Assembly (NCBI RefSeq): GCF_006438915.1 | Contig: NZ_RCZE01000001.1 | Location: 234,325 to 298,324, forward strand | DNA: 64,000 nt | From: Pseudomonas arsenicoxydans | GTDB taxonomy: Bacteria; Pseudomonadota; Gammaproteobacteria; Pseudomonadales; Pseudomonadaceae | Direction of reading: 5' to 3' | Shown: piece by piece, positions 21,564 through 34,164 of the stretch | Layout of the letters: every line of letters begins with the position of its first letter | Numbering within the stretch: the first letter of the stretch is position 1 | Notes under the pieces: model-generated | Seen by the model: only the letters and a program-made list of their open reading frames with translations | What the model was told of the DNA's origin: nothing | Databases searched by the model: none | Translations under genes and position numbers: made by a program

Positions 21564-22202
21564 ATGACCCGACTCGCCACCCCACGCAAACCCCGCGCCC
21601 GCAGCCAGGCGCGGATCGATTCGATACTCGATGCCGCCCGCACGCTGCTGGCCGCCGAGGGTGTGGCGAGTCTGTCGATCTACAGCGTCGCCGAACGCGC
21701 GGAGATACCGCCCTCCTCCGTCTACCACTTTTTTGCCAGCGTCCCGGCGCTGCTGGAAGCGCTGACGGCCGACGTTCACGCCGCGTTCCGCGCCTGCCTG
21801 CAAGCGCCCATCGATCATGGCGCCCTGAGCGACTGGCGCGACCTGTCACGCCTGGTGGAGCAGCGCATGCTGGCGATCTACAGCGAAGACGCCGCCGCCC
21901 GCCAGTTGATCCTCGCCCAGCATGGCCTGACCGAAGTCACCCAGGCCGACCGCCAGCACGACATCGAACTGGGCGACCTGATGCACAAACTCTTCGACCA
22001 CCATTTCGAATTGCCGAAGCTGCCGACGGACGTTGATGTGTTTGCGCTGGCCATGGAATTGGGTGACCGCGTTTATGCGCGCTCGGTGCAGCAGCACGGG
22101 CAGATTACGCCGCGCATGGCGGAGGAAGGGATGCGCGTGTTTGATGCTTACCTTGGGTTGTACTTGCCGCCGTACTTACACAAGCGCGTTATTTCGAACT
22201 GA
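21564..22202 (+). CDS. TetR-family transcription regulator
   Basis: A 212-residue regulator. ATG 21564 follows AGGAGA; the longer open frame runs through the REPIN and is rejected. The N-terminal HTH is clear (RIDSILDAARTLLAAEGVASLSIYSVAERAEIPPSSVYHFFASVPALLEALT, about residues 16-67). The C-terminal helical domain has no features that reveal its ligand. It stands between the polyamine and sulfonate clusters and is convergent with ssuF. It may control a distant gene or itself; no target is obvious. Confidence 0.88.
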   Translation: MTRLATPRKPRARSQARIDSILDAARTLLAAEGVASLSIYSVAERAEIPPSSVYHFFASVPALLEALTADVHAAFRACLQAPIDHGALSDWRDLSRLVEQRMLAIYSEDAAARQLILAQHGLTEVTQADRQHDIELGDLMHKLFDHHFELPKLPTDVDVFALAMELGDRVYARSVQQHGQITPRMAEEGMRVFDAYLGLYLPPYLHKRVISN

Positions 22203-22222
22203 TTTCTTTATTGGCTACGCGG

Positions 22223-22310
22223 GCCTCTTCGCGAGCAAGCCCGCTCCCACATTGATCGCGTCCGTCTGGACAACTCGGTCAAGTGTGGGAGCGGGCTTGC
22301 TCGCGAAGGC
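22223..22310. repeat. REPIN palindrome, convergent junction
   Basis: Arms 22223-22252 and 22282-22310, CCCACA ends inward, between the TetR gene and ssuF. Confidence 0.9.
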
Positions 22311-22330
22311 AACGCCGCCGATCTCACGCC

Positions 22331-22546
22331 TTACAACTTGGCAATCGACACTTCAGTGGATTTCACAAACGCGATCACTTCGCTGCCGACCACCAGTTCC
22401 AGCTCTTTGACCGAGCGCGTGGTGATCACCGAAGTGACGATGCCGGACGCGGTTTGCACGTCGATTTCCGACAGCACGTCACCCAGCACGATTTCCTTGA
22501 TCGAGCCTTTGAACTGGTTACGAACGTTGATGGCTTTGATAGTCAT
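22331..22546 (-). CDS. ssuF: Molybdopterin-binding-like protein SsuF (Mop/TOBE)
   Basis: A 71-residue single Mop domain (MTIKAINVRNQFKGSIKEIV, SEIDVQTASGIVTSVITTRSVKELEL, GSEVIAFVKSTEVSIAKL). Such proteins assemble as hexamers that bind molybdate or other oxyanions. In P. putida the homologous last gene of ssuEADCBF was reported to be needed for organosulfur use although its exact job is unclear. It follows ssuB by 33 bases. It contains no Cys and only the initiator Met. Confidence 0.88.
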   Translation of the reverse strand: MTIKAINVRNQFKGSIKEIVLGDVLSEIDVQTASGIVTSVITTRSVKELELVVGSEVIAFVKSTEVSIAKL

Positions 22547-22579
22547 GATGTTGATTCCTGTCGTTGGATAAGGCTTGAG

Positions 22580-23386
22580 TTAATGAGCCCAACGCAATTG
22601 CGTAGGCAAGGGTGAAACGGGTTCCGGTTCCGGCGGTTCGCCGGGCAGTGCGAGGACGCGATTGAGGACTTCGGTTTCCAGCGCCGCCAGCCGATGCGAG
22701 CCGCGAACTCGAGGGCGTGGCAGTTCCACGATCAGGTCGAGTCCGACTTCGCCCTCTTCAATCAGGATCACCCCGTCGGCAATCGCCACCGCTTCGCTGA
22801 CGTCGTGGGTCACCAGCAACACGGTGAAACCATGCTTGCGCCAGAGCCGCTCGATCAGCTGCTGCATTTCAATTCGGGTCAGGGCATCCAGCGCGCCCAG
22901 CGGTTCGTCGAGCAACAGCAAGCGCGGTTGATGGATCAACGCACGCGCCAGCGCCACACGTTGTTTCTGGCCGCCGGACAAAGCCGCCGGCCATTCATTG
23001 GCGCGATCCGCCAGGCCGACCGATTCCAGTGCTTCAAGGGCTTGCGCACGCCAGTCGCCTTTAAGACCGAGGCCGACGTTGTCGATGACCTTTTTCCACG
23101 GCAGCAGACGCGCTTCCTGGAACATCAATCGGGTGTCTTCCCGCGCATCACTCAACGGCGCCGCACCGGCGAGCAAGTCACCCCCCGTAGGCTTGTCGAG
23201 GCCCGCCAGCAAACGCAGCAAGGTACTTTTGCCGCAACCGCTGCGCCCCACCACTGCAACGAATTGGCCGGCCGGAATGTGCAGATCGATCTCGCGCAAC
23301 ACCTGCCGCGAACCAAAGGTTTTTTGCAGCTTGCGCACCACCAGCGGAATCCCGCGCAGCAGGCGTGGAGGTTGTTGAGCAGTCAT
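22580..23386 (-). CDS. ssuB: Aliphatic sulfonate ABC transporter ATPase SsuB
   Basis: A 268-residue ATPase driving sulfonate import. ATG 23386 is chosen: it overlaps the ssuC stop by 4 bases and has a strong AAAGGAGG site. Walker [11 protein letters not shown]-loop [10 protein letters not shown], signature ALSGGQKQR, Walker [13 protein letters not shown], and [13 protein letters not shown] are all intact. A C-terminal extension of about 60 residues ([23 protein letters not shown] onward) is usual in this subfamily. Confidence 0.95.
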
Positions 23387-24165
23387 GCCGCACCTCCTTT
23401 GACAACCTGATAGGCCGGGTGCCAACGCAGCCACACGCGTTCAAGTCCACGGGCCGCGAGGTCGGCCAGTTTGCCGAGCACCGCGTACAAAAGAATCGCC
23501 AGCACCACCACGTCGGTCTGCAAAAACTCCCGGGCATTCATCGCCAGATAACCGATGCCGGAACTGGCGGAAATGGTTTCCGCGACGATCAGCGTCAGCC
23601 ACATGAAGCCCAACGCAAAACGCACACCGACCAGAATCGAAGGCAGCGCCCCCGGCAGAATCACCTGACGAAACAGGCTGAAACCGGACAAGCCATAACT
23701 GCGCGCCATCTCCACCAGTGCCGGGTCGACGTTGCGGATGCCGTGATAGGTGTTGAGGTAGATCGGGAACAACGTGCCCAGCGCCACCAGGAAAATCTTC
23801 GCCGACTCGTCGATACCGAACCACAAAATCACCAGCGGAATCAGCGCCAGATGCGGCACGTTGCGGATCATCTGCACCGAACTGTCGAGCAGGCGTTCGC
23901 CCCACTTCGACAGGCCGGTGATGAAGCCCAGCACCAGGCCGATGCTGCCGCCGATGGTAAAGCCCAGCGCCGCGCGCCAGCCGCTGATTGCCAAGTGCGT
24001 CCAGATTTCACCGCTGCGCACCAGGCTCACACCGGCTTCGATCACTGCGATCGGTGCTGGCAGGATCCGCGTCGACAACCAGCCCGCCGACACCGACAAC
24101 TGCCACACCGCCAGCAGCAACACCGGCAACGCCCACGGCGCGAGGTTGTGGATGATTTTTTTCAT
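23383..24165 (-). CDS. ssuC: Aliphatic sulfonate ABC transporter permease SsuC
   Basis: A 260-residue inner-membrane permease of the SsuC/TauC type with about six membrane segments and the EAA loop [31 protein letters not shown] at about residues 155-185. It works with SsuB and SsuA to import alkanesulfonates. It starts 8 bases after the ssuD stop with GAGG upstream and overlaps ssuB by 4 bases. No Cys residues. Confidence 0.95.
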
Positions 24166-24173
24166 GGCGCGCC

Positions 24174-25322
24174 TCAGCTCTGGGACGCGGCTTTGGGGAG
24201 GATGTCGTTGGCGACCATCTCGCCGAACGGGCTAACGTAGTTGGCGCCCTGCGGCAACTCCGGACGTTGAATGTCCAGATGCGGAAAGAGCAGTTCGGCC
24301 ACGCGGTAAGACTCTTCAAGGTGTGGGTAACCGGAGAAGATAAAGGTGTCGATGCCCAGGTTCGCGTACTCCTTCACGCGGGCGGCGACGGTCGGGCCGT
24401 CGCCAACCAACGCGGTACCGGCACCGCCACGGACCAGACCGACACCGGCCCACAAGTTCGGGCTGACTTCGAGGTTGTCGCGACTGCCGCCATGCAGTGC
24501 GGCCATGCGTTGCTGGCCGACGGAATCGAAGCGCGCCAGTGAAGCCTGGGCGCGGGCGATGGTTTCATCGTCCAGATGCGAGATCAATTTGTCAGCCGCT
24601 TGCCAGGCTTCGGCGTTGGTCTCGCGAACGATCACATGCAGGCGAATACCGAAGCGCACCGTGCGCCCGAGCTTCGCCGCCTTGGCGCGCACTTGCTCGA
24701 TTTTTTCGGCCACGGCGGCCGGCGGTTCGCCCCAGGTCAGGACCATTTCCACTTGTTCTGCCGCGAGGTCTTGCGCTGCTTCCGACGAGCCACCGAAGTA
24801 CAGCGGCGGACGCGGTTGCTGGATCGGCGGATAGAGCAACTTGGCGCCCTTCACGCTGATGTGCTGACCGTCGTAATCGACGGTTTCACCTTCGAGCACA
24901 CGACGCCAGATGCGGGTGAATTCCACCGAGGCCTGGTAGCGTTCTTCGTGGCTGAGGAACAAACCATCGCCGGCCAATTCGTCCGGGTCACCGCCAGTGA
25001 CCAGATTGAACAACGCACGACCACCGGACAGACGATCCAGGGTCGCCGCCTGACGCGCCGCCACCGTCGGGGAAATGATCCCCGGGCGCAAGGCGACAAG
25101 GAATTTCAAACGCTGGGTCACCGGGATCAGCGACGCCGCCACCAGCCACGAGTCTTCGCAGGAGCGGCCGGTTGGAATCAGCACCCCGCCAAAACCCAGG
25201 CGATCCGCCGCTTGCGCGATTTGTTGCAGGTAACCGTGGTCAACGGCGCGAGCGCCTTCGGCGGTGCCAAGGTAATGGCCGTCGCCGTGGGTAGGCAGGA
25301 ACCAGAAAATATTGAGGCTCAT
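24174..25322 (-). CDS. ssuD: FMNH2-dependent alkanesulfonate monooxygenase SsuD
   Basis: A 382-residue flavin-dependent two-component monooxygenase that cleaves the C-S bond of alkanesulfonates, releasing sulfite and an aldehyde, with FMNH2 from SsuE. TIM-barrel bacterial-luciferase fold. Visible: [19 protein letters not shown], the active-site region GRSCEDSW with the conserved Cys, and [29 protein letters not shown] with the conserved phosphate-site Arg. AAGGAG lies 8 bases before the ATG. Middle of the ssuEADCBF operon. Confidence 0.96.
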
Positions 25323-25348
25323 GGAGTGGTCTCCTTCAGGGAATCGAA

Positions 25349-26344
25349 TTACTGGGCTTGGGTTACTGAGCTTTGGGCAACAGTCGCCGGTGGCGTCCAG
25401 ATCACGTCTTTGATGCTCAACGGCTTCGGAATCAGCTTGAGCTGGTAGAAGCTGTCAGCGATTTTCTGTTGCGCGGCGACCACTTCAGGCGTGAGGAACA
25501 GCGCGCCATAGCCCTGGCGTTTCACCGACGTCAGGGTGATGTCTGCCGGCAGACCGAGCAGTGGCGACACCTGTTGGGTGACGTCTTCAGGATTGGCCTT
25601 GGACCATTCGCCGACCGCGCGCACTTCTTCGACGAGTGTCTTGATCACCTCAGGATTTTTCTGTGCGTAAGGTTTGGTCGCGAGGTAGAACTGATGGTTG
25701 TCGACGATGCCTTGGCCATCACGCAGAGTGTGCGCTTGCAGTTGTTTCTCGGCGGCGGCCTGGTATGGGTCCCAGATGACCCAGGCGTCGACGCTGCCAC
25801 GCTCAAAGGCTGCGCGGGCATCGGCTGGCGGCAGGAACACGGTCTGGATGTCGGTGTATTTGAGGCCGGCGTCTTCCAGCGCACGCACCAGCAGGTAGTG
25901 GACGTTGGAGCCTTTGTTAAGCACGACTTTCTTGCCCTTGAGGTCCTTCACCGATTTGATCGGCGAGTCCTTCGGCACCAGGATCGCTTCGCTGTGCGGT
26001 GCCGGTGGTTCGTAGGCGACGTAGAGCAGATCTGCGCCGGCCGCCTGGGCGAAGACCGGTGGAGTTTCACCGGTCACGCCGAAGTCGATGGAGCCTACGT
26101 TCAGACCTTCGAGCAGTTGCGGGCCGCCGGGAAATTCAGTCCATTGCACGTCCACGCCTTGGGCGGCGAGGCGTTTTTCCAGAGTGCCTTTGGCTTTGAG
26201 CAGCACCAAAGTGCCGTATTTTTGATAGCCGATTCGCAACACGCCTTCCTGGGTAGAAAGCGCTTGAGCTTGAGTAATGGCGCCGAAGGTTACAGCCGCA
26301 GCAAACAGAGCGACCAGACCACGACGCAAAATGACAGTGCGCAT
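25349..26344 (-). CDS. ssuA: Aliphatic sulfonate-binding protein SsuA
   Basis: A 331-residue periplasmic binding protein. ATG 26344 is preceded by AAAAGGAGA and opens a signal peptide (about residues 1-29, ending TQAQA). Seen: [56 protein letters not shown] and [16 protein letters not shown], all typical of SsuA. Apart from the initiator Met, the protein contains neither Met nor Cys, in keeping with expression under sulfur starvation. It lies 89 bases after ssuE. Confidence 0.95.
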
Positions 26345-26433
26345 AGCGCTCTCCTTTTTGCAGTTGGGTTTTGGCTGCACCTGCTTGACCGTTGGCGGCT
26401 GAGTAAGGTGAGTGGATCAATTTCGGGTGAGGC

Positions 26434-27027
26434 TTAAATGCTCCAGCGAGCACTCAACAAACGTTCGTTCAACAGATTCGGATCAAGCGGCTTTGGCCGC
26501 CGTGCCATGGCGCTGAAAAACAGTTCCAGCGACTCGTTCAATCGTTGTTCCAGCTCCGGCGCCAACTGCGCCTGGGCACTGCCTTTGCCGTAAGCGATCT
26601 GGCTGTCTTCAGCAAAAATTCCGTGGAGCATTTCCTGGGCTTTCAGCGCCGACAGCACGGGCTTGAGTGCGTAATCCACCGCCAGCATGTGGGCGATGCT
26701 GCCGCCGGTGGCCATCGGCAATACGACCTTGTGAGCCAGGGCTCGCTCGGGCAGCAAATCCAGCACGGTTTTCAATGCGCCGGAAAAGGACGCTTTGTAA
26801 ACCGGTGTGGCGATCAGCAGGCCATCGGCGTTTTCAATCTGCTGCAGCAGGTCAATGACCTTGTGGCTGTCGAAGCGTGCGTGCAGCAAGTCTTCCGCCG
26901 GGAAATCCCGAATCTGGTAACTCACCACTTCCACCCCTTGCTCCTGCAACCAGCGCTGGGAGCGTTCCAGCAGCACCCCGGATCGAGAGCGTTGGCTTGG
27001 ACTGCCACCGAGTGAGACGACCAGCAT
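26434..27027 (-). CDS. ssuE: NAD(P)H-dependent FMN reductase SsuE
   Basis: A 197-residue flavodoxin-fold reductase supplying FMNH2 to SsuD. Seen: [12 protein letters not shown] (flavin phosphate loop), [27 protein letters not shown] and [28 protein letters not shown] lies 7 bases before the ATG. First gene of the ssu operon; upstream is an AT-rich region with TTCTTTATGG-like sequence suitable for a CysB-dependent promoter, though I cannot define the site. No Cys. Confidence 0.95.
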
Positions 27028-27178
27028 TCAGTGATTCCTTGAACGGTGTTGGCGATTCGCGGTTTGCGATCTCGCTGCGATGGAAGTGACCTTAACAGTT
27101 GATTGTTATATCCATAAATCATATTTATTCATTTGGTTATTCTTTATGGAGATATGCAAATCAGTGATTTCGAGGCAT

Positions 27179-27202
27179 AAAAAAAGGCCGTCGAAACGAC
27201 CT
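27179..27202 (-). terminator. Intrinsic terminator downstream of lsfA
   Basis: On the minus strand: a 7-bp stem AGGTCGT with ACGGCCT (one G-U pair) closed by a TTCG tetraloop, then a run of seven T. It lies beyond the 27222-27323 repeat and ahead of the ssuE promoter, isolating the two units. Confidence 0.85.
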
Positions 27203-27221
27203 GAAATCCCCTGCTATTGGT

Positions 27222-27323
27222 GATCGTTCCCACGCTCTGCGTGGTAATGCCTCTAGGGACGCTCCGCGTCCAGTGACGCGGAGCGTCACGGGCTGCATTC
27301 CCACGCAGAGCGTGGGAACGATC
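27222..27323. repeat. Third palindrome family: GATCGTTCCCACGCTCTGCG
   Basis: Perfect 23-bp outer arms (27222-27244 and 27301-27323) and a separate perfect 13-bp inner hairpin (27258-27270 with 27275-27287). This resembles another intergenic repeat family common in Pseudomonas, unrelated to the other two here. It follows the lsfA stop. Confidence 0.9.
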
Positions 27324-27328
27324 ATGGA

Positions 27329-27967
27329 TTACCTGTTCGGCTGCGGTGTGAGGCGCAAATACGGTTTCACCGCGCGATAGCCCTTGGGAAAGCGCTGCCT
27401 GATTTCATCTTCATCCTTGAGCGACGGCACGATCACCACTTCATCACCGTCCTGCCAGTTGGCCGGGGTCGCCACCTTGTAGTTGTCGGTGAGTTGCAGC
27501 GAATCAATCACCCGCAGAATTTCGTGGAAGTTACGGCCGGTACTCGCCGGGTAGGTGATGGTCAGCCGAATCTTTTTGGCCGGGTCGATCACGAACAGCG
27601 AACGCACGGTCAAGGTGTCGTTAGCGTTGGGATGAATCAGGTCGTACAGGTCCGACACCTTGCGGTCGGCGTCGGCGAGGATCGGGAAGTTGACGAGCGT
27701 GTCCTGAGTTTCGTTGATGTCCTCGATCCACCGGTGATGCGAGTCCACCGGGTCAACCGACAGGGCGATGGCTTTGACCCCGCGCTGGGCAAATTCGTCC
27801 TTGAGCCGGGCGGTGAACCCCAGTTCGGTGGTGCACACCGGGGTGAAGTCCGCCGGATGGGAAAACAGCACGCCCCAACTATCGCCCAGCCATTCGTGGA
27901 AACGGAGGGTGCCGGCGCTGGAATCCTGTTCAAAGTCGGGGGCGATATCGCCCAGTCTGAGGCTCAT
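27329..27967 (-). CDS. lsfA: 1-Cys peroxiredoxin LsfA
   Basis: A 212-residue Prx6-type peroxidase that reduces peroxides. The active site SHPADFTPVCTTELG has the peroxidatic Cys45 with Thr and Pro in place; R126-region and the dimerising C-terminal domain (PANWQDGDEVVIVPS) are present. AGGAG precedes the ATG. The only sulfur residues are Met1 and the catalytic Cys. In P. putida and P. aeruginosa, LsfA is a sulfate-starvation-induced protein located near ssu, as here. Its role is thought to be protection during organosulfur oxidation. Confidence 0.94.
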   Translation of the reverse strand: MSLRLGDIAPDFEQDSSAGTLRFHEWLGDSWGVLFSHPADFTPVCTTELGFTARLKDEFAQRGVKAIALSVDPVDSHHRWIEDINETQDTLVNFPILADADRKVSDLYDLIHPNANDTLTVRSLFVIDPAKKIRLTITYPASTGRNFHEILRVIDSLQLTDNYKVATPANWQDGDEVVIVPSLKDEDEIRQRFPKGYRAVKPYLRLTPQPNR

Positions 27968-28155
27968 GGTGCTGCTCCTGGTGAGTGCTTGTTGAGATCG
28001 ACTTTGCCTGCATCCGCGAATAATTAAAAAGAATAAATATTGATTTATTTAGATCATAAAGAAATATTAAATATCTGTTCATTGGACGTGAACAGGCAAC
28101 GCGCCCAACATCGCCCATAAGGTTCGAGAAGGCCTTGAGTGCTGCAAAGAGGAGA

Positions 28156-28194
28156 GTTTCGAGGCGGGTTTACGGGGGTGATCCCGCCTTGAAA
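28156..28194. repeat. Imperfect inverted repeat in the oprD-lsfA gap
   Basis: 13-bp arms 28156-28168 and 28182-28194 (GTTTCGAGGCGGG against CCCGCCTTGAAAC) with one mismatch, immediately before the terminator hairpin at 28201. It may be a second termination or stabilising structure. Confidence 0.45.
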
Positions 28195-28200
28195 CGCAAA

Positions 28201-28237
28201 AGCCCCGCCGGGCGAGATGCCGGGCGGGGCTTTTTTT
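28201..28237. terminator. Intrinsic terminator after the first oprD gene
   Basis: 9-bp perfect GC stem (28201-28209 with 28223-28231), T-run on the plus strand and a shorter T-run on the minus strand. For the minus-strand porin gene ending at 28259 it is correctly placed. Confidence 0.8.
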
Positions 28238-28258
28238 GTCTCGGTTACTCGAGTGCTA

Positions 28259-29599
28259 TTACAACAGCGGGATCGAGTAGCTGAGGATCAGGCGGTTTTC
28301 GTCCTGGGAGCGAGTGCTCGGCAGGTCGGTGCGCCACATAGCGTTTTTCCAGGCAACGCCGAGGTTCTTCAGCGGGCCTTCCTGTACGACGTAGGCAACG
28401 CTTAGGTCGCGTTCCCACTCGGAAGCGCCGTTAGCCAACTGACCACCTTTAGCGTTAACGGTGTCGATGCTGTCACCGCGCAGGTAAACCATACCGGCGG
28501 TCAGGCCAGGTACGCCAACCTTGGCGAAGTCGAACGAGTAGCGTGCTTGCCAGGTTTTCTCGCCGGCACGACCAAACTTCTGGATTTGCGAATCGGTGAT
28601 GGTGTAGTTCGACGAACCGTCACCCTGGTTCAGCCAAGGGAAGTCGCTGCTGCCGTTGCTGACCTGGTAACCGCCACCAAAGGTATGACCGGCAACCGAG
28701 TACAGGAACAGGCCGCTGTACAGGTTGTTGTCGACCTTGCCTTTACCGTTTGGCGCGTTGTAGTTGCCAGTGGTGTAGTACGCCGGGTCGTGACCGTTGG
28801 CACCATCATCGGTGCTGTTGAAGTAACGGAAATCCGACTTCAACACGCCCGGGCCGATTGCCCAGTTGTGAACCAGACCCAGGAAGTGTTGCTTGTAGAA
28901 CTCTTCCAGGTTGCCGTAGTAGTACTGGGCGGTCAGGTCCTTGGTGATTTTGTAGTCACCACCGGCATAGATGAACTTGTTGCTGTCGCGCCATTTAGGA
29001 CCATGAGCGTTCGCACCGGAAATCGACATCTGGTCGTTGTTGCTGGAGTTACGACCTTTGACGGCTTCGATCTGACCACCGACCAGCGACAGGTCTTTGA
29101 TCTCGGCGGAAGTGATCTGGCCACCCTGCCAGGTTTGTGGCAGCAGACGACCATCGTTGGTCACGATCACCGGGTTTTTCGGCTGCAGCGTACCCAGCTT
29201 CAATTCGCTTTGGGAGATCTTGGCTTTAGCCGTCAGACCCAGGCTGGAGAAGTCATCAACCGCTTCGCCGTTGGACTTGCTCGGGAACACCGTGCCACCG
29301 GAAGAGGTGGCAGTGGCGCCGCTGGTGCCGCCGCCTGAATCCAGCTTGACGCCCAACAGGCCGATCGCATCGATACCGAAGCCGACAGTGCCTTGGGTGT
29401 AACCGGAGATGAAACGCAGATCGAAGCCTTGGCCCCACTCTTCGTTCTTGTTCGGACCGGTACCGTCACGGTAATCGGTGTTGATGTAGAAGTTACGCAG
29501 CCCCAGGGTGGCCTTGCTGTCTTCGATGAAACCGGCGGCGCCTGCTTGCTGCGCCAAAACCCCAACGGCCACAGCGATGGCCAAGGTGGACTTGTTCAT
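28259..29599 (-). CDS. OprD-family outer-membrane porin 1
   Basis: A 446-residue 18-strand porin. ATG 29599 with GGAG upstream opens a signal peptide (MNKSTLAIAVAVGVLAQQAGA|AGF), followed by FIEDSKATLGLRNFYINTDYRD, the typical OprD start. Alternating strands and aromatic girdle residues continue to the C terminus, SYSIPLL. OprD-family porins pass specific small substrates such as amino acids, carboxylates or sulfonates. Position next to lsfA/ssu and the low Met content (four; no Cys) suggest uptake of an organic sulfur compound, but this is inference. About 24-residue near-identical N terminus with the second porin indicates duplication. Confidence 0.9.
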   Translation of the reverse strand: MNKSTLAIAVAVGVLAQQAGAAGFIEDSKATLGLRNFYINTDYRDGTGPNKNEEWGQGFDLRFISGYTQGTVGFGIDAIGLLGVKLDSGGGTSGATATSSGGTVFPSKSNGEAVDDFSSLGLTAKAKISQSELKLGTLQPKNPVIVTNDGRLLPQTWQGGQITSAEIKDLSLVGGQIEAVKGRNSSNNDQMSISGANAHGPKWRDSNKFIYAGGDYKITKDLTAQYYYGNLEEFYKQHFLGLVHNWAIGPGVLKSDFRYFNSTDDGANGHDPAYYTTGNYNAPNGKGKVDNNLYSGLFLYSVAGHTFGGGYQVSNGSSDFPWLNQGDGSSNYTITDSQIQKFGRAGEKTWQARYSFDFAKVGVPGLTAGMVYLRGDSIDTVNAKGGQLANGASEWERDLSVAYVVQEGPLKNLGVAWKNAMWRTDLPSTRSQDENRLILSYSIPLL

Positions 29600-29959
29600 T
29601 GTTTCGCTCCTCATTACTAATGCTTGTGGTCCGGGTCCTGGGTCGAATGCCCTGGTACCTAAGACGCGCAATTTTTGCCGAGCCTTCTAGGCCGGTCGTT
29701 TTGGCCGAGCAGGATACAGCGTCATAAAGCTAAAAAGAATTTTGTATTTCTTTTTAATTCCGTTTAGGAATATGACTACGCAGCACAGATTCGAGGTATC
29801 GGCCACAAAGCCAATTCCTTGACCAGATCTGCTAACGGAGTTTATTCAGCGGATGTCCGACCTCGCAGAGACCGGACGGGGCCTACTTTAGGTGTTTGAG
29901 AAAAAAACCAAAAAGAATAAAAAATGCTCGAGTGTGCTGTTATTGGAATATATACAGAC
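29600..29959. promoter_or_regulatory. Upstream region of oprD-type porin 1
   Basis: No gene is seen in these 360 bases. It must hold the minus-strand porin promoter. Bases 29721-29776 match 31531-31587, upstream of porin 2, over about 55 bp at roughly three-quarters identity, including GTCATAAA, AAAAGAA, TATTTCTTTT and TTTAGGAAT (29763-29771). The conserved placement upstream of both genes suggests a shared activator site, CysB being the obvious candidate. Confidence 0.5.
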
Positions 29960-29990
29960 AAAAAAAAGCCTCGCCAATTGGGCGAGGCTT
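29960..29990 (-). terminator. Intrinsic terminator of porin 2
   Basis: 10-bp perfect stem AAGCCTCGCC with GGCGAGGCTT, 5-nt loop, and a T-run on the minus strand, 15 bases after the porin 2 stop. Confidence 0.92.
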
Positions 29991-30004
29991 TCCCTGACAA
30001 CCTA

Positions 30005-31360
30005 TTACATGAAGCTGTAGGTGTAGTTGAAGATCAGACGGGTCTGGTCTTGATCAAGGGTGCTGGTGTTGCCACGGTAGGTACCGTGACGCAGCGTTGT
30101 ACCAAACCCTTTAAGTGCACCTGTTTGAATCACGTAGTCGATACGCGCGTCGGTCTCGTGCTCACTCAGGTCTTTACCAGTACCGTTGGTAGCCTTGATG
30201 TCCTGTCCATTGAGGTAAGCAATCGAAGCTTTCAGGCCTGGCACGCCAAGTGAGGCGAAGTCATAGGAGTACTGACCGAACGTGGTGTTTTCACCGGCAC
30301 GGATAAAGCTGCCAACCGTGGCATCGGTGAACGAGTAGAAGCTCGCGCCGCCGGCACCTTCCTGATTATTGTTGCCATCGACAAGGTTGCCTTGGTTCAA
30401 GAACACAAAGCCGCCGTCATCGTTGACGCGCTGGTGACCCAGCAGGAATGCGTTGCCACCCAGGGTGTAGGTGAACATACCGCTCCAGGTCTTGTTATCG
30501 ACCTCGCCCGGGGTCTTGGCGTAACCGTTGTTGTTGTTGAAGCGGTAGCCGGCGTCACCGTTCTTGCCAACCGAGCTGCTGTCGAAGTAGCGGAAATCCG
30601 ACTTGAACGACTGCTTGGGATCGATCGTCCAGACGTGAACCATCCCCAGGAAGTCCTGTTTGTAGTAATCCTGCAGTTCCGCGTGGTAGTACTGCAGGGT
30701 CAGGTCTTTGGTGACCTTCCAGTCAGCACCGCCGTAACGGAACTGGTTGCTGTCCTGGGTACCGCCCGCCACTGCCATGCCGGTGCCGTTGGAAGAGGCG
30801 CGACCCGACGCTTGCTCCAGCTGACCCAGGTTGATGGTCACATTGTCGATTTCCTTCGAGGAGATGGTGCCCCCTTGAAAGGTCTGTGGCAGCAAACGAC
30901 TGTCGTTCGCGATCAGGATCGGCAGGTTAGGTGCCAGAGCGCCACCCAGGTGCGCTTCGGTCTTCGAGAAGCGCGCCTTGACGTTGCCATCCAGACGGCT
31001 CCACTCGTCGGCCGAGTGATCGCCATCGCTAGGGAAGAACGAGTTAGCGTTACCCGTCGGATGATGCCCTTTGCCACCGTCCAGGTGGATGCCAACGAGT
31101 GCCTGGGCATCGATACCGAAGCCGACAGTACCTTGGGTAAAACCGGACAGGTAATCGAACTTGAGACCTTCAGCGGTTTCTCGCTGACGGTTAGCAGCAG
31201 CATTGTTAGCAGGAGCGTTCAGACTTGAACGCACATCGGCGTCGTAGTACATGGTGCGAGAGCTGACGGACGCCTTGCTGTCGTCCAGGAAACCGGCTGC
31301 GCCTGCCTGCTGCGCCAAAACCCCTACGGCCACGGCCAAAGCCAAGTTTGACTTGTTCAT
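30005..31360 (-). CDS. OprD-family outer-membrane porin 2
   Basis: A 451-residue porin, paralogue of porin 1. GAGGAG precedes the ATG; the signal peptide is MNKSNLALAVAVGVLAQQAGA, then AGFLDDSKASVSSRTMYYDADVR. Shared internal features with porin 1 include GFTQGTVGFGIDA, LLPQTFQGGTISSKEI, and FLGMVHVW. Loop sequences differ, so substrates probably differ. It has no Cys and six Met. It is divergent from the tauA-like gene, with related TTCCTAAA motifs facing both ways in the gap; likely both are part of the sulfur-starvation response. Confidence 0.9.
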   Translation of the reverse strand: MNKSNLALAVAVGVLAQQAGAAGFLDDSKASVSSRTMYYDADVRSSLNAPANNAAANRQRETAEGLKFDYLSGFTQGTVGFGIDAQALVGIHLDGGKGHHPTGNANSFFPSDGDHSADEWSRLDGNVKARFSKTEAHLGGALAPNLPILIANDSRLLPQTFQGGTISSKEIDNVTINLGQLEQASGRASSNGTGMAVAGGTQDSNQFRYGGADWKVTKDLTLQYYHAELQDYYKQDFLGMVHVWTIDPKQSFKSDFRYFDSSSVGKNGDAGYRFNNNNGYAKTPGEVDNKTWSGMFTYTLGGNAFLLGHQRVNDDGGFVFLNQGNLVDGNNNQEGAGGASFYSFTDATVGSFIRAGENTTFGQYSYDFASLGVPGLKASIAYLNGQDIKATNGTGKDLSEHETDARIDYVIQTGALKGFGTTLRHGTYRGNTSTLDQDQTRLIFNYTYSFM

Positions 31361-31723
31361 TGTGATGCTCCTCTCGATTCTAATTCTTGTGTTCCTGGCC
31401 CCGAGTCGATGCCCGGAATCCTAAGATGCGCGATTAGCGCCATAGCGTGACCCACTAGTCAATCGTAACTATGTGTGTCTACGACCATGGTCTAATCCCC
31501 CGTTTTTTTGGTCCATGCAGGTCATGAGTTCGTCATAAACCTGAAAAGAACTAGCTATTTCTTTTCTCATACCTTTTAGGAATTAAGCTCTTCGCCGCTC
31601 CCCATCCTCAGAATAGAGCCCCCAGCTAATAAGCTAATTCCTAAATAGTATTTATTAGCCGTTTTTTAGATCGTTTAGCGTTTGAAGCAATTCGGAAACA
31701 AAACCTTACCGAAAGGCGACGCC
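31361..31723. promoter_or_regulatory. Divergent porin 2/tauA-like promoter region
   Basis: These 363 bases hold no gene. On the minus strand ATTCCTAAA at 31575-31583 lies in the block shared with the porin 1 upstream region; on the plus strand the same ATTCCTAAA occurs at 31637-31645, about 79 bases before the tauA-like start, followed by an AT-rich palindromic stretch. This looks like paired binding sites for one regulator serving both genes. Confidence 0.5.
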
Positions 31724-32713
31724 ATGACGACTAAACGCGCACTATCCAGTCCAATTGTTACAGTTTGTGTATCGCTATTATTTTCTCTTTCCGCTCAGGC
31801 GGGCAATCTGACCGTGGGTTATCAAACCGGTATCGATCCCAGCAAAGTCCCCCAGGCAGACGGTCTGTACGAAAAAACCATCGGCGAGAAAATTGACTGG
31901 CGTCGCTTCAACAGCGGCCCGGAAGTGGTGACCGCCATCGCGTCCGGTGACGTGCAGATCGGCAATCTCGGCTCCAGCCCTTTGGCCGCGGCCGCTTCGC
32001 GCAACCTGCCAATTGTCGCGTTCATCGTGTCTGCCCAGATCAATGCGGCCGAAGCCCTGGTGGTGCGCAATGGGAGTGGCATCGATAAACCGGAAGATCT
32101 GATCGGCAAGACCATCGCCACCCCGTTCGTTTCAACCTCCCACTACAGCTTGCTCGGCGCGCTCAAGCACTGGGGCCTGGACGCCTCGAAAGTCAAAGTG
32201 GTGAACCTGCAACCGGCGGAAATTGCTGCCGCGTGGAAGCGTGGGGATATTGATGGCGCGTTTGTCTGGTCGCCGGCGTTGGGTGAAATTCGCAAGACCG
32301 GCAAGACGTTGACGGATGCGGCGCAGGTGGGTCAGTGGGGAGCGCCGACGTTCGAGGTCTGGGTTGCGCGTAAGGATTACGCGGAGAAACACCCTGAGGT
32401 AGTGGCCAGGTTTGCCAAGGTCACGCTGGATTCGTTCGCCGACTACGCCACGCATAAAGACAGCTGGACCGCCGACTCGGTGCCGGTACAGAAAATCGCC
32501 AAACTGACCGGTGCCAATGCCGCCGATGTACCGGAGTTGTTGGCTGGTTCGGCGTTCCCGGATGCCAAGGCCCAGCAGACCACCGCACTACTGGATGGCG
32601 GCACGGCGAAGGCGATTGGCGAGACGGCGAAGTTCTTGAAGGAACAGGGGAAGGTAGAGACGGTGCTGCCGGATTATTCGGCGTATGTCAGTGCGAAGTT
32701 TGTGGCGGAATAG
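31724..32713 (+). CDS. Orphan TauA-like sulfonate-binding protein
   Basis: A 329-residue periplasmic binding protein of the taurine/sulfonate family. ATG 31724 has GAAAGG upstream and opens a signal peptide (about residues 1-26, ending SAQA). Seen: LTVGYQTGIDPSKVPQADG, IDWRRFNSGPEVVTAIASGDVQIGNLGSSPLA, TPFVSTSHYSLLGALKHWG and AAWKRGDIDGAFVWSPAL, matching TauA closely. The mature protein has no Met and no Cys. No tauB, tauC or tauD follows; the next gene is argA on the other strand. It must either borrow another transporter such as SsuBC or a distant TauBC, or be a leftover. Confidence 0.87.
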   Translation: MTTKRALSSPIVTVCVSLLFSLSAQAGNLTVGYQTGIDPSKVPQADGLYEKTIGEKIDWRRFNSGPEVVTAIASGDVQIGNLGSSPLAAAASRNLPIVAFIVSAQINAAEALVVRNGSGIDKPEDLIGKTIATPFVSTSHYSLLGALKHWGLDASKVKVVNLQPAEIAAAWKRGDIDGAFVWSPALGEIRKTGKTLTDAAQVGQWGAPTFEVWVARKDYAEKHPEVVARFAKVTLDSFADYATHKDSWTADSVPVQKIAKLTGANAADVPELLAGSAFPDAKAQQTTALLDGGTAKAIGETAKFLKEQGKVETVLPDYSAYVSAKFVAE

Positions 32714-32724
32714 CACTCAAAACC

Positions 32725-32856
32725 TGTGGCGAGGGAGCTTGCTCCCGCTGGAGGCCGAAGGACTCCCACCTCTAACAACGCGGTGAATCAGTTATTGCGC
32801 GTTCGTTAGTTTTGGGGCCGCTTCGCAGCCCAGCGGGAGCAAGCTCCCTCGCCACA
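32725..32856. repeat. GGCGAGGG-type long element, copy A
   Basis: Arms TGTGGCGAGGGAGCTTGCTC and onward (32725-32750, 32831-32856). The whole roughly 132-bp unit, including its interior with GAGGCCGAAGGACTCCC and ACGCGGTGAATCAG, matches 37121-37253 in opposite orientation. It lies between convergent tauA-like and argA. Confidence 0.92.
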
Positions 32857-32865
32857 TGTTCGCGG

Positions 32866-34164
32866 TCACAGGGTCTTTTCGAAGATCTTCGAATTACGCT
32901 GATAGTTGTACAGCGAAGCCCGCGCCGACGGCAGGCGCTCAACGCTGCTCGGCACGAACCCGCGCTCGCGGAACCAGTGAGCGGTGCGGGTCGTCAGTAC
33001 GAACAGTGTTTTCAACCCCTGGGCCCGGGCACGGGTTTCGATGCGCTCCAACAGTTCATCACCGCGACCGCCATGGCGGTATTCCGGGTTCACCGCCAGG
33101 CAGGCCAGTTCCCCAGCGTCCGAATCGGCGATCTGATACAACGCCGCACAGGCGATGATCATGCCTTCGCGCTCAACCACGCTGAACTGCTCGATCTCAC
33201 GCTCCAGCACTTCACGGGAACGACGCACCAGAATCCCCTGCTCTTCCAGCGGGCTGATCAGGTCCAGCAAACCACCGACGTCTTCAATCGCGGCTTCACG
33301 CACCACTTCGAATTGTTCCTGCGCGACCAGCGTACCGCCACCGTCACGGGTGAACAATTCGGTCAGCAGTGCACCGTCTTCGGCGTAGCTGACGATATGG
33401 CTACGCGCCACGCCGCCGCGGCACGCTTCAGCCGCCGCATCCAGCAGCTCAGCCTGATAATTGCTGCCCAGTCGCTGTAAATGCGCCGGCACTTGTTGCG
33501 GACGCAATTCCCGCACCAGACGACCGTTTTCATCGATCAAGCCCAGGTCGGCGCCGAACAGCAGCAACTTGTCCGCGCCCAGGTCAATGGCCGCGCGGGT
33601 GGCGACGTCTTCGCAGGCGAGGTTGAAGATCTCACCGGTTGGCGAGTAGCCCAACGGCGACAGCAGCACGATGGAGCGCTCGTCGAGCAGGCGATTGATG
33701 CCTTTGCGGTCGACCCGGCGCACTTCGCCAGTGTGGTGGTAATCCACGCCTTCCAGCACCCCGATCGGCCGCGCCGTGACCAGGTTGCCGCTGGCCACCC
33801 GCAGGCGCGAGCCCTGCATAGGCGACGAGGCCATGTCCATGGACAGGCGCGCTTCGATGGCGATACGCAGTTGACCGACGGCATCGATCACACACTCCAG
33901 CGTCGCGGCATCGGTGATGCGCATGCCGTGGTGGTAATGCGGGGTCAGGCCACGCGCGGCGAGGCGGGTTTCAATTTGCGGACGGGAACCGTGAACCAGC
34001 ACCAGCCGCACGCCCAGGCTGTGCAACAGCACCAGGTCGTGGACGATATTGCCGAAATTCGGATGCTCCACTCCATCGCCGGGGAGCATGACGACAAAGG
34101 TGCAATCGCGATGGGCATTGATGTAAGGCGAAGCGTGACGAAGCCAATTAACGTATTCGGGCAT
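32866..34164 (-). CDS. argA: N-acetylglutamate synthase ArgA
   Basis: A 432-residue enzyme making N-acetylglutamate from acetyl-CoA and glutamate, the first step of arginine synthesis. Residues about 1-290 form the amino-acid-kinase domain (HSLGVRLVLVHGSRPQIE, the arginine-sensing part) and about 295-432 a GNAT acetyltransferase domain (ACLAVNPEYRHGGRGDELLERIE binds CoA). ATG 34164 opens the conserved MPEYVNWLRHASPYINAHR; ten more upstream codons are not typical. It follows argE on the same strand after a 268-base gap containing a REPIN. Confidence 0.95.
   Translation of the reverse strand: MPEYVNWLRHASPYINAHRDCTFVVMLPGDGVEHPNFGNIVHDLVLLHSLGVRLVLVHGSRPQIETRLAARGLTPHYHHGMRITDAATLECVIDAVGQLRIAIEARLSMDMASSPMQGSRLRVASGNLVTARPIGVLEGVDYHHTGEVRRVDRKGINRLLDERSIVLLSPLGYSPTGEIFNLACEDVATRAAIDLGADKLLLFGADLGLIDENGRLVRELRPQQVPAHLQRLGSNYQAELLDAAAEACRGGVARSHIVSYAEDGALLTELFTRDGGGTLVAQEQFEVVREAAIEDVGGLLDLISPLEEQGILVRRSREVLEREIEQFSVVEREGMIIACAALYQIADSDAGELACLAVNPEYRHGGRGDELLERIETRARAQGLKTLFVLTTRTAHWFRERGFVPSSVERLPSARASLYNYQRNSKIFEKTL

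Follow-up and report, generated by a model that had tools for sequence, protein, structure and literature searches.

Between positions 22331 and 32713 of the window analysed here, a 64,000-nucleotide stretch of Pseudomonas arsenicoxydans DNA (assembly GCF_006438915.1, contig NZ_RCZE01000001.1, positions 234,325 to 298,324), lie the ssu genes, lsfA, two porin genes and a gene for a TauA-like binding protein, several of whose products contain almost no cysteine or methionine. The host genome comprises 6.72 Mb in 41 contigs. On the minus strand the gene order is porin 2, porin 1, lsfA, ssuE, ssuA, ssuD, ssuC, ssuB and ssuF; the TauA-like gene runs divergently to porin 2, with argA after it, and we have coined the names tauO and TauO for this orphan gene and its protein. 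The ssu genes encode, each above its family cut-off, a flavin mononucleotide (FMN) reductase (SsuE, 26434–27027, TIGR03567), a sulfonate-binding protein of 331 residues (SsuA, 25349–26344, NF008588), an FMNH2-dependent alkanesulfonate monooxygenase (SsuD, 24174–25322, TIGR03565) and the permease and ATPase of a sulfonate ATP-binding cassette (ABC) transporter (SsuC, 23383–24165, NF008470; SsuB, 22580–23386, NF008420). They end with ssuF, which encodes a 71-residue TOBE/Mop domain protein (22331–22546, TIGR00638 and PF03459). LsfA (27329–27967), a 1-Cys peroxiredoxin of 212 residues, matches PF10417 and lies barely above the NF009668 cut-off. Porin 1 (28259–29599) and porin 2 (30005–31360) belong to the OprD family (PF03573), and tauO, on the plus strand (31724–32713), encodes a TauA-class binding protein of 329 residues that scores 434.9 bits against a TIGR01729 cut-off of 304.25. 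Genes were called with our own codon-usage caller, which places the start of the TauA-like gene too far downstream; where stated, we took the ATG at 31724 instead.

Counts over related loci refer to the best 80 of 319 matches to tauO, among which the nearest named relatives come from P. brassicacearum 38D7, Pseudomonas sp. GM21 and P. jessenii. The neighbourhood is conserved across this set: argA follows tauO, lsfA is present and at least one porin separates it from tauO (80/80 for each), with one porin at 40 loci and two at the other 40. At three loci (L039, L041 and L051) ssuD is absent between ssuC and ssuA, and a tblastn search of these loci with ssuD gave no match at 1e-10.

We recounted the sulfur-containing residues of the cluster proteins and reproduced the numbers on which the earlier note had based its proposal of a shared low-sulfur response. 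SsuA and SsuF contain Met1 and no other Met or Cys, LsfA contains Met1 and Cys45, and TauO contains Met1 and a single Cys at position 15 within the signal peptide, leaving the mature protein without either residue. Counted from their ATG starts, the porins have 4 and 6 Met including the initiator (3 and 5 internal Met) and no Cys, and the nearby proteins named SpuD and SpuE in the earlier note have 8–9 Met and 2 Cys. Elsewhere in this text the initiator Met is left out of Cys and Met counts unless stated otherwise. SsuB, SsuC and SsuD are moderately low in Cys+Met (1.12, 1.54 and 1.05%, respectively), and SsuE, at 2.0–2.2%, is not strongly depleted and lies near the genome average. Against the 2.93% pooled from 443 proteins of at least 150 residues in a first sample of 694 kb, the binomial probability was 5e-5 for SsuA and 1e-4 for the shorter called form of TauO, each taken alone.

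This composition is conserved. Internal Met is absent from TauO in 77/80 relatives and numbers one in the other 3, with one Cys in 12/80 called forms; LsfA has one Cys and no internal Met in 80/80, and SsuA lacks both in 67/77. Mean Cys+Met over orthologs (from residue 30 onward, 42–81 sequences per family, with calls covering less than 85% dropped) was 0 for SsuF, 0.05% for SsuA, 0.16% for TauO, 0.55% for LsfA, 0.49% for porin 1 and 1.05% for porin 2, compared to 2.04–5.11% for four flanking control genes.

We extended the comparison to an enlarged sample of 1936 kb, or 29% of the genome, containing 1213 proteins of at least 150 residues. Among the 443 proteins of the first sample, SsuA, TauO, LsfA and porin 1 had ranked 6th, 6th, 9th and 13th from the bottom in Cys+Met, ties included. 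Nine called proteins of at least 200 residues in the enlarged sample had neither Cys nor internal Met. By their NCBIfam and Pfam names these were SsuA, TauO (shorter called form), a second TauA, the sulfate-binding protein Sbp, two SfnB proteins, a cystine-binding protein, a MetQ-family protein (under its NCBIfam cut-offs, over the Pfam NlpA cut-off) and an NMT1-like binding protein, which has no NCBIfam name and whose gene follows a TauD-family gene and precedes ABC genes. Of 1035 further proteins with 200 residues or more, a set that excludes the porins and cluster genes, none was sulfur-free. The 35 proteins that we assigned to sulfur acquisition averaged 1.16% Cys+Met against 3.14% in 1387 others; in these 35, Met stood at 0.40 and Cys at 0.30 times background, with all other residues at 0.88–1.19 times. 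In the 1936 kb sample, a protein of at least 200 residues without Cys or internal Met almost always marked a sulfur-scavenging gene, and the low sulfur content of the Ssu proteins, with SsuE as the exception, LsfA and TauO is confirmed as a sulfur-specific depletion.

To look for a shared promoter element, we learned a motif from the upstream sequences, cleared of repeats, of seven sulfur genes located on other contigs. The resulting motif is AT-rich, reads GaATAAGAAatTAAATAaatAtttt at width 25, and at width 20 reached a likelihood of 64.3 compared to 44.3–50.3 in 15 random sets; other runs, in one of which 1 of 6 random sets gave a nearly equal likelihood and in another of which repeats dominated, were discarded in favour of the repeat-free one. 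Applied at width 25 to the held-out upstream regions of the cluster, the motif identified candidate elements upstream of ssuE (27118–27142, minus strand; score 15.8, with 0/568 controls as high), upstream of lsfA (28031–28055, plus strand; 12.2, 2/568) and in the region common to porin 2 and tauO (31548–31572, minus strand; 15.0, 0/568), with a weak match upstream of porin 1 (29736–29760, minus strand; 8.5, 12/568). The oscA gene, just 5′ of sbp, scored 7.8 (19/568). Orthologous upstream regions reached the 95th percentile of controls in 77/77 cases for ssuE, 80/80 for lsfA, 37/48 for tauO, 55/79 for porin 1 and 15/42 for porin 2. As a guess, the element could be a CysB site, and CysB would then perhaps be the regulator. 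A scan for sigma-54 promoters returned mainly the repeated TGGGAGCGGGCTTGCT, presumably a repetitive extragenic palindromic (REP) element, and we claim no sigma-54 site; a corresponding sigma-70 scan found 3 sites, where 3.3 would be expected. Between the end of lsfA and the promoter region of ssuE, positions 27200–27328 contain a long REP-like palindrome, and an Rfam scan of 22000–33500 gave no match at gathering score.

TauO exceeds the TIGR01729 cut-off and falls under the narrower PRK11480 cut-off (395.7 against 490 bits), as does a second TauA of the same genome (TauA2, 422.9), which is 58% identical to TauO and sits with tauBCD on contig C38. Among the matches listed for 199 genomes of the genus, TauO-class proteins are at least 69% identical to TauO (at least 80 genomes) and the other class at most 61%; each of the 49 genomes whose TauO match has an expectation value (E) of 1.3e-186 or better carries two matches, of which the second is sometimes missing from the list. 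Across 274 genomes of the class, matches at 1e-80 came only from the host genome itself and one other (46% identity). No tauB, tauC or tauD was found within four genes of tauO in 80/80 related loci. At 20 more distant TauO loci, tauBCD lies in the same cluster in 15, together with TauA2 in 6 and with TauO alone in 9, and is missing from the cluster at L240, L241, L248, L249 and L250; the tau genes adjoin a porin and lsfA at L233, L234, L235, L237 and L239. TauO lacks Cys and internal Met at 15/20 of the distant loci. At L234 a further SsuA-like binder, 45% identical to SsuA and likewise without Cys or internal Met, lies between tauO and the porin. The simplest history would have TauO once part of a tau cluster at this site whose other genes were lost or moved.

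In E. coli TauA (PDB 6ssy), taurine is bound by Gln30, Thr132, Glu106 and Asp205, and Asp205 is described as taurine-selecting, its change to Ala weakening binding from 1.6 nM to about 23 µM (PMC6906117). TauO aligns with this protein at E 7e-106 over 300 residues and keeps Thr132 and Trp176 in 101/101 sequences, Glu106 in 100/100 of those covered and Gln30 in 73/75 covered; the E. coli chain is likewise without Met or Cys in 296 residues. In contrast to E. coli TauA, TauO has Glu at 205 (101/101) and Gly at 32 (75/75 covered), and no tauBCD adjoins it in the window clade; Asn occupies position 59 in 79/81 covered. TauA2 has Asp205 in 7/7. Residues 55, 84 and 109 in the numbering of PMC6906117 mismatched in type on our alignment, and we make no claim about them. 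The nine lineages in which TauO is the sole binder of a tauBCD cluster also have Glu205, so this residue occurs with a complete tau cluster and is no sign of orphaning.

We tentatively propose, as a reading that is somewhat less likely than not, that TauO is a distinct subclass of TauA, sampled mainly in Pseudomonas, whose fixed Asp205-to-Glu and Ser32-to-Gly pocket may bind a non-taurine or an additional aminosulfonate. In the fluorescens clade it would act as a solo sulfur-free binder feeding a TauBC from another site in the genome, so that one permease would be loaded by two binders under separate promoters. Permeases served by two binding proteins are known from HisJ/ArgT and Sbp/CysP. The sharing of one tauBCD cluster by TauO and TauA2 in 6 of the 20 distant loci resembles these systems; the window genome differs from them in carrying the two binder genes on different contigs, with use of TauBC by TauO inferred.

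Taken as a whole, the locus is probably a set of sulfonate-scavenging genes encoding proteins poor in the very element that they gather. In this account ssuEADCBF would import and desulfonate alkanesulfonates, lsfA would contribute a 1-Cys peroxiredoxin, and tauO would supply a periplasmic TauA-class sulfonate binder without neighbouring tauBCD. The ligand of TauO would most likely be passed in trans to TauBC on contig C38 and less likely to the adjacent SsuBC. The genes are presumably induced by sulfate starvation in this strain, and selection would have removed Met and Cys because the proteins are made under sulfur scarcity, most from binding proteins, LsfA, SfnB and MsuE and least from permeases; the cost of sulfur is the presumed cause of the depletion. 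Several observations weigh against this account. SsuE, CysT, CysW, MetI2 and TcyL have close to the usual sulfur content, the motif scan did not find the element upstream of sbp, metQ2 or dcyD, and unrelated controls score up to 13.8. In addition, because the list of 35 sulfur-acquisition proteins was partly picked after composition was known and the sample was enlarged non-randomly, with stretches near matches on contigs C38, C14, C8 and C40, the sulfur-depletion rates are descriptive.

Low Cys+Met might instead be general to exported proteins, which would fit the OprD porins. We examined PF00497 binding proteins as a control, taking 30 of 40 genome matches, 24 of which had a called gene over the centre. 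Of these, 23 hold 1.15–4.9% Cys+Met and the only one with none binds cystine; the values for three further TauA-like relatives are 0.85, 3.06 and 4.24%. The depletion in the Ssu and TauO binding proteins therefore goes beyond the level of their own families, and the earlier note's concern that binding proteins genome-wide might be equally low was not borne out. SfnB, MsuE and SsuF, which are cytoplasmic, are also sulfur-free, and we consider a general trait of export very unlikely. Avoidance of Met and Cys owing to oxidative stress would be in keeping with LsfA being a peroxiredoxin and with the rise of antioxidant genes in sulfur-starved P. aeruginosa (PMC12581299). The trait common to the sulfur-free proteins, however, is sulfur acquisition (binders for sulfate, cystine, taurine, sulfonate and MetQ-type ligands), and other periplasmic binders retain Met and Cys; the two causes are only partly separable by sequence, and we regard oxidative stress as the unlikely one. 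For tauO itself, the lack of tauBCD within four genes and the presence of a second TauA with tauBCD elsewhere could indicate a functionless, decaying remnant. However, the ratio of nonsynonymous to synonymous substitution rates (dN/dS) for tauO averages 0.038 over 7 comparisons, within the range of ssuD, lsfA and ssuA (0.026–0.069; argA, 0.014), the gene is kept at 89–98% identity in the best 80 of 319 matches, and Glu106, Thr132 and Trp176 are retained. TauO is under purifying selection and, given a dN/dS of about 0.04, is not decaying; we hold the remnant explanation to be highly improbable.

The earlier note took both porins to be probable members of the sulfate-starvation response, marked by their low sulfur content; as such they would let sulfonates cross the outer membrane. 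Porin 1 has 0.71% and porin 2 has 0.93% Cys+Met over the stretch matched by Pfam, compared to a mean of 1.27% (standard deviation 0.57) in 26 other OprD porins from this and two other genomes, with one genome's porin 1 ortholog excluded; 6/26 of these are as low as or lower than porin 1 and 8/26 than porin 2, and 2/10 in each case within the own genome, so the porins show no special depletion within their family. By our reading of the sequence, the low-sulfur porins of the own genome adjoin genes for oligopeptide transport, agmatine use, and fatty acid or polyhydroxyalkanoate metabolism. Because such low values are common among OprD-family porins, we dropped composition as evidence for porin membership; equally low porins elsewhere were what the earlier note itself had named as grounds for rejecting its proposal. 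The proposed sulfur response is supported for the Ssu proteins, LsfA and TauO, whose depletion is sulfur-specific, absent from other binders, conserved and accompanied by a shared promoter element, and is not supported for the porins by composition. The PF03573 match and the tandem copies are features that the window porins have in common with OprD-family porins such as OprE. Porin 1 presumably has its P. putida ortholog in OprE (PP_0234). As a point against a place in the sulfur response, OprE drops at low glucose (PMC3166926) and rises 2.4-fold at low shaking (PMC3538555).

Membership of the porins in the sulfur response is possible, if somewhat doubtful for both together, and would rest on conserved neighbourhood and the promoter element. 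Every related locus has a porin between lsfA and tauO, a porin also adjoins lsfA and tau genes at the distant loci named above, and porin 1 orthologs, besides their low mean, include 5/79 without Cys or Met (one of the 79 has five; the set of other porins for comparison was shallower). The strong element before porin 2 is shared with tauO, and because the region is common to both, the element at 31548–31572 can be assigned to neither gene alone. Porin 1 orthologs reach the 95th percentile of controls in 37/39 one-porin loci, where the region is common with tauO, and in 17/39 two-porin loci. The rank of porin 1 shifts with motif width: of the 568 controls, 1 scores as high at width 16, 57 do so at width 20 and 12 at width 25. 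Among other OprD genes, five of the own genome score 0.5–4.3, and a further 17, taken from two additional genomes, –2.5 to 9.1, the highest being a different porin (L259) that exceeds porin 1. The porins also evolve faster (dN/dS 0.19 and 0.205), and the second is missing at half of the related loci.

Sulfur sparing is already known, and the TauO subclass is the newer part of this work. Quadroni et al. (1999) reportedly studied sulfur sparing in P. aeruginosa under sulfur starvation. In Rhodococcus IGTS8, several sulfur-acquisition proteins have no Cys or one by Cys/Met count (PMC8557817), which resembles the few or no Cys and Met seen here; our analysis differs in that it concerns a Pseudomonas of the fluorescens group and adds family controls, among them OprD, a family whose low sulfur is uninformative. 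The percentage of sulfur amino acids has been tabulated for SAR11 (PMC5069961), and a study of P. aeruginosa PAO1 under sulfur starvation lists LsfA, SsuBDE and TauAC as up and Sbp as marginally so (PMC12581299). We found no report of an orphan TauA, its Glu205 or sulfur-poor porins in the literature searched, which mostly left out subscription papers, so that absence from print is unproven. The sulfur-free criterion could nominate new members of the response from sequence, provided that a family with uniformly low values, such as the OprD porins, is judged against its own kin, and TauO, as a conserved solo binder with an altered selectivity residue, offers a concrete target for ligand assays.

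Beyond the window, C38:10018-54455 (L136, L137, L118 and L119) is a sulfur-scavenging region containing an oscA-like gene, sbp-cysTWA, two sfnB genes, an NtaA/DmoA-family monooxygenase gene, genes for MetQ-family and cystine transport, a D-cysteine desulfhydrase gene and tauABCD. This region, together with contigs C8 and C14, accounts for seven of the nine sulfur-free proteins and for most element matches. At C38:24974-25697 (L137, L194), adjoining a sulfur-linked region, an amino-acid-type binding-protein gene has a stop codon within the match. On contig C14, L131:9407-13091 carries the TauD-family gene, the sulfur-free NMT1-like binder, and an ABC ATPase and permease with the shared upstream element described above; these genes are a candidate uncharacterised importer of a sulfur compound.

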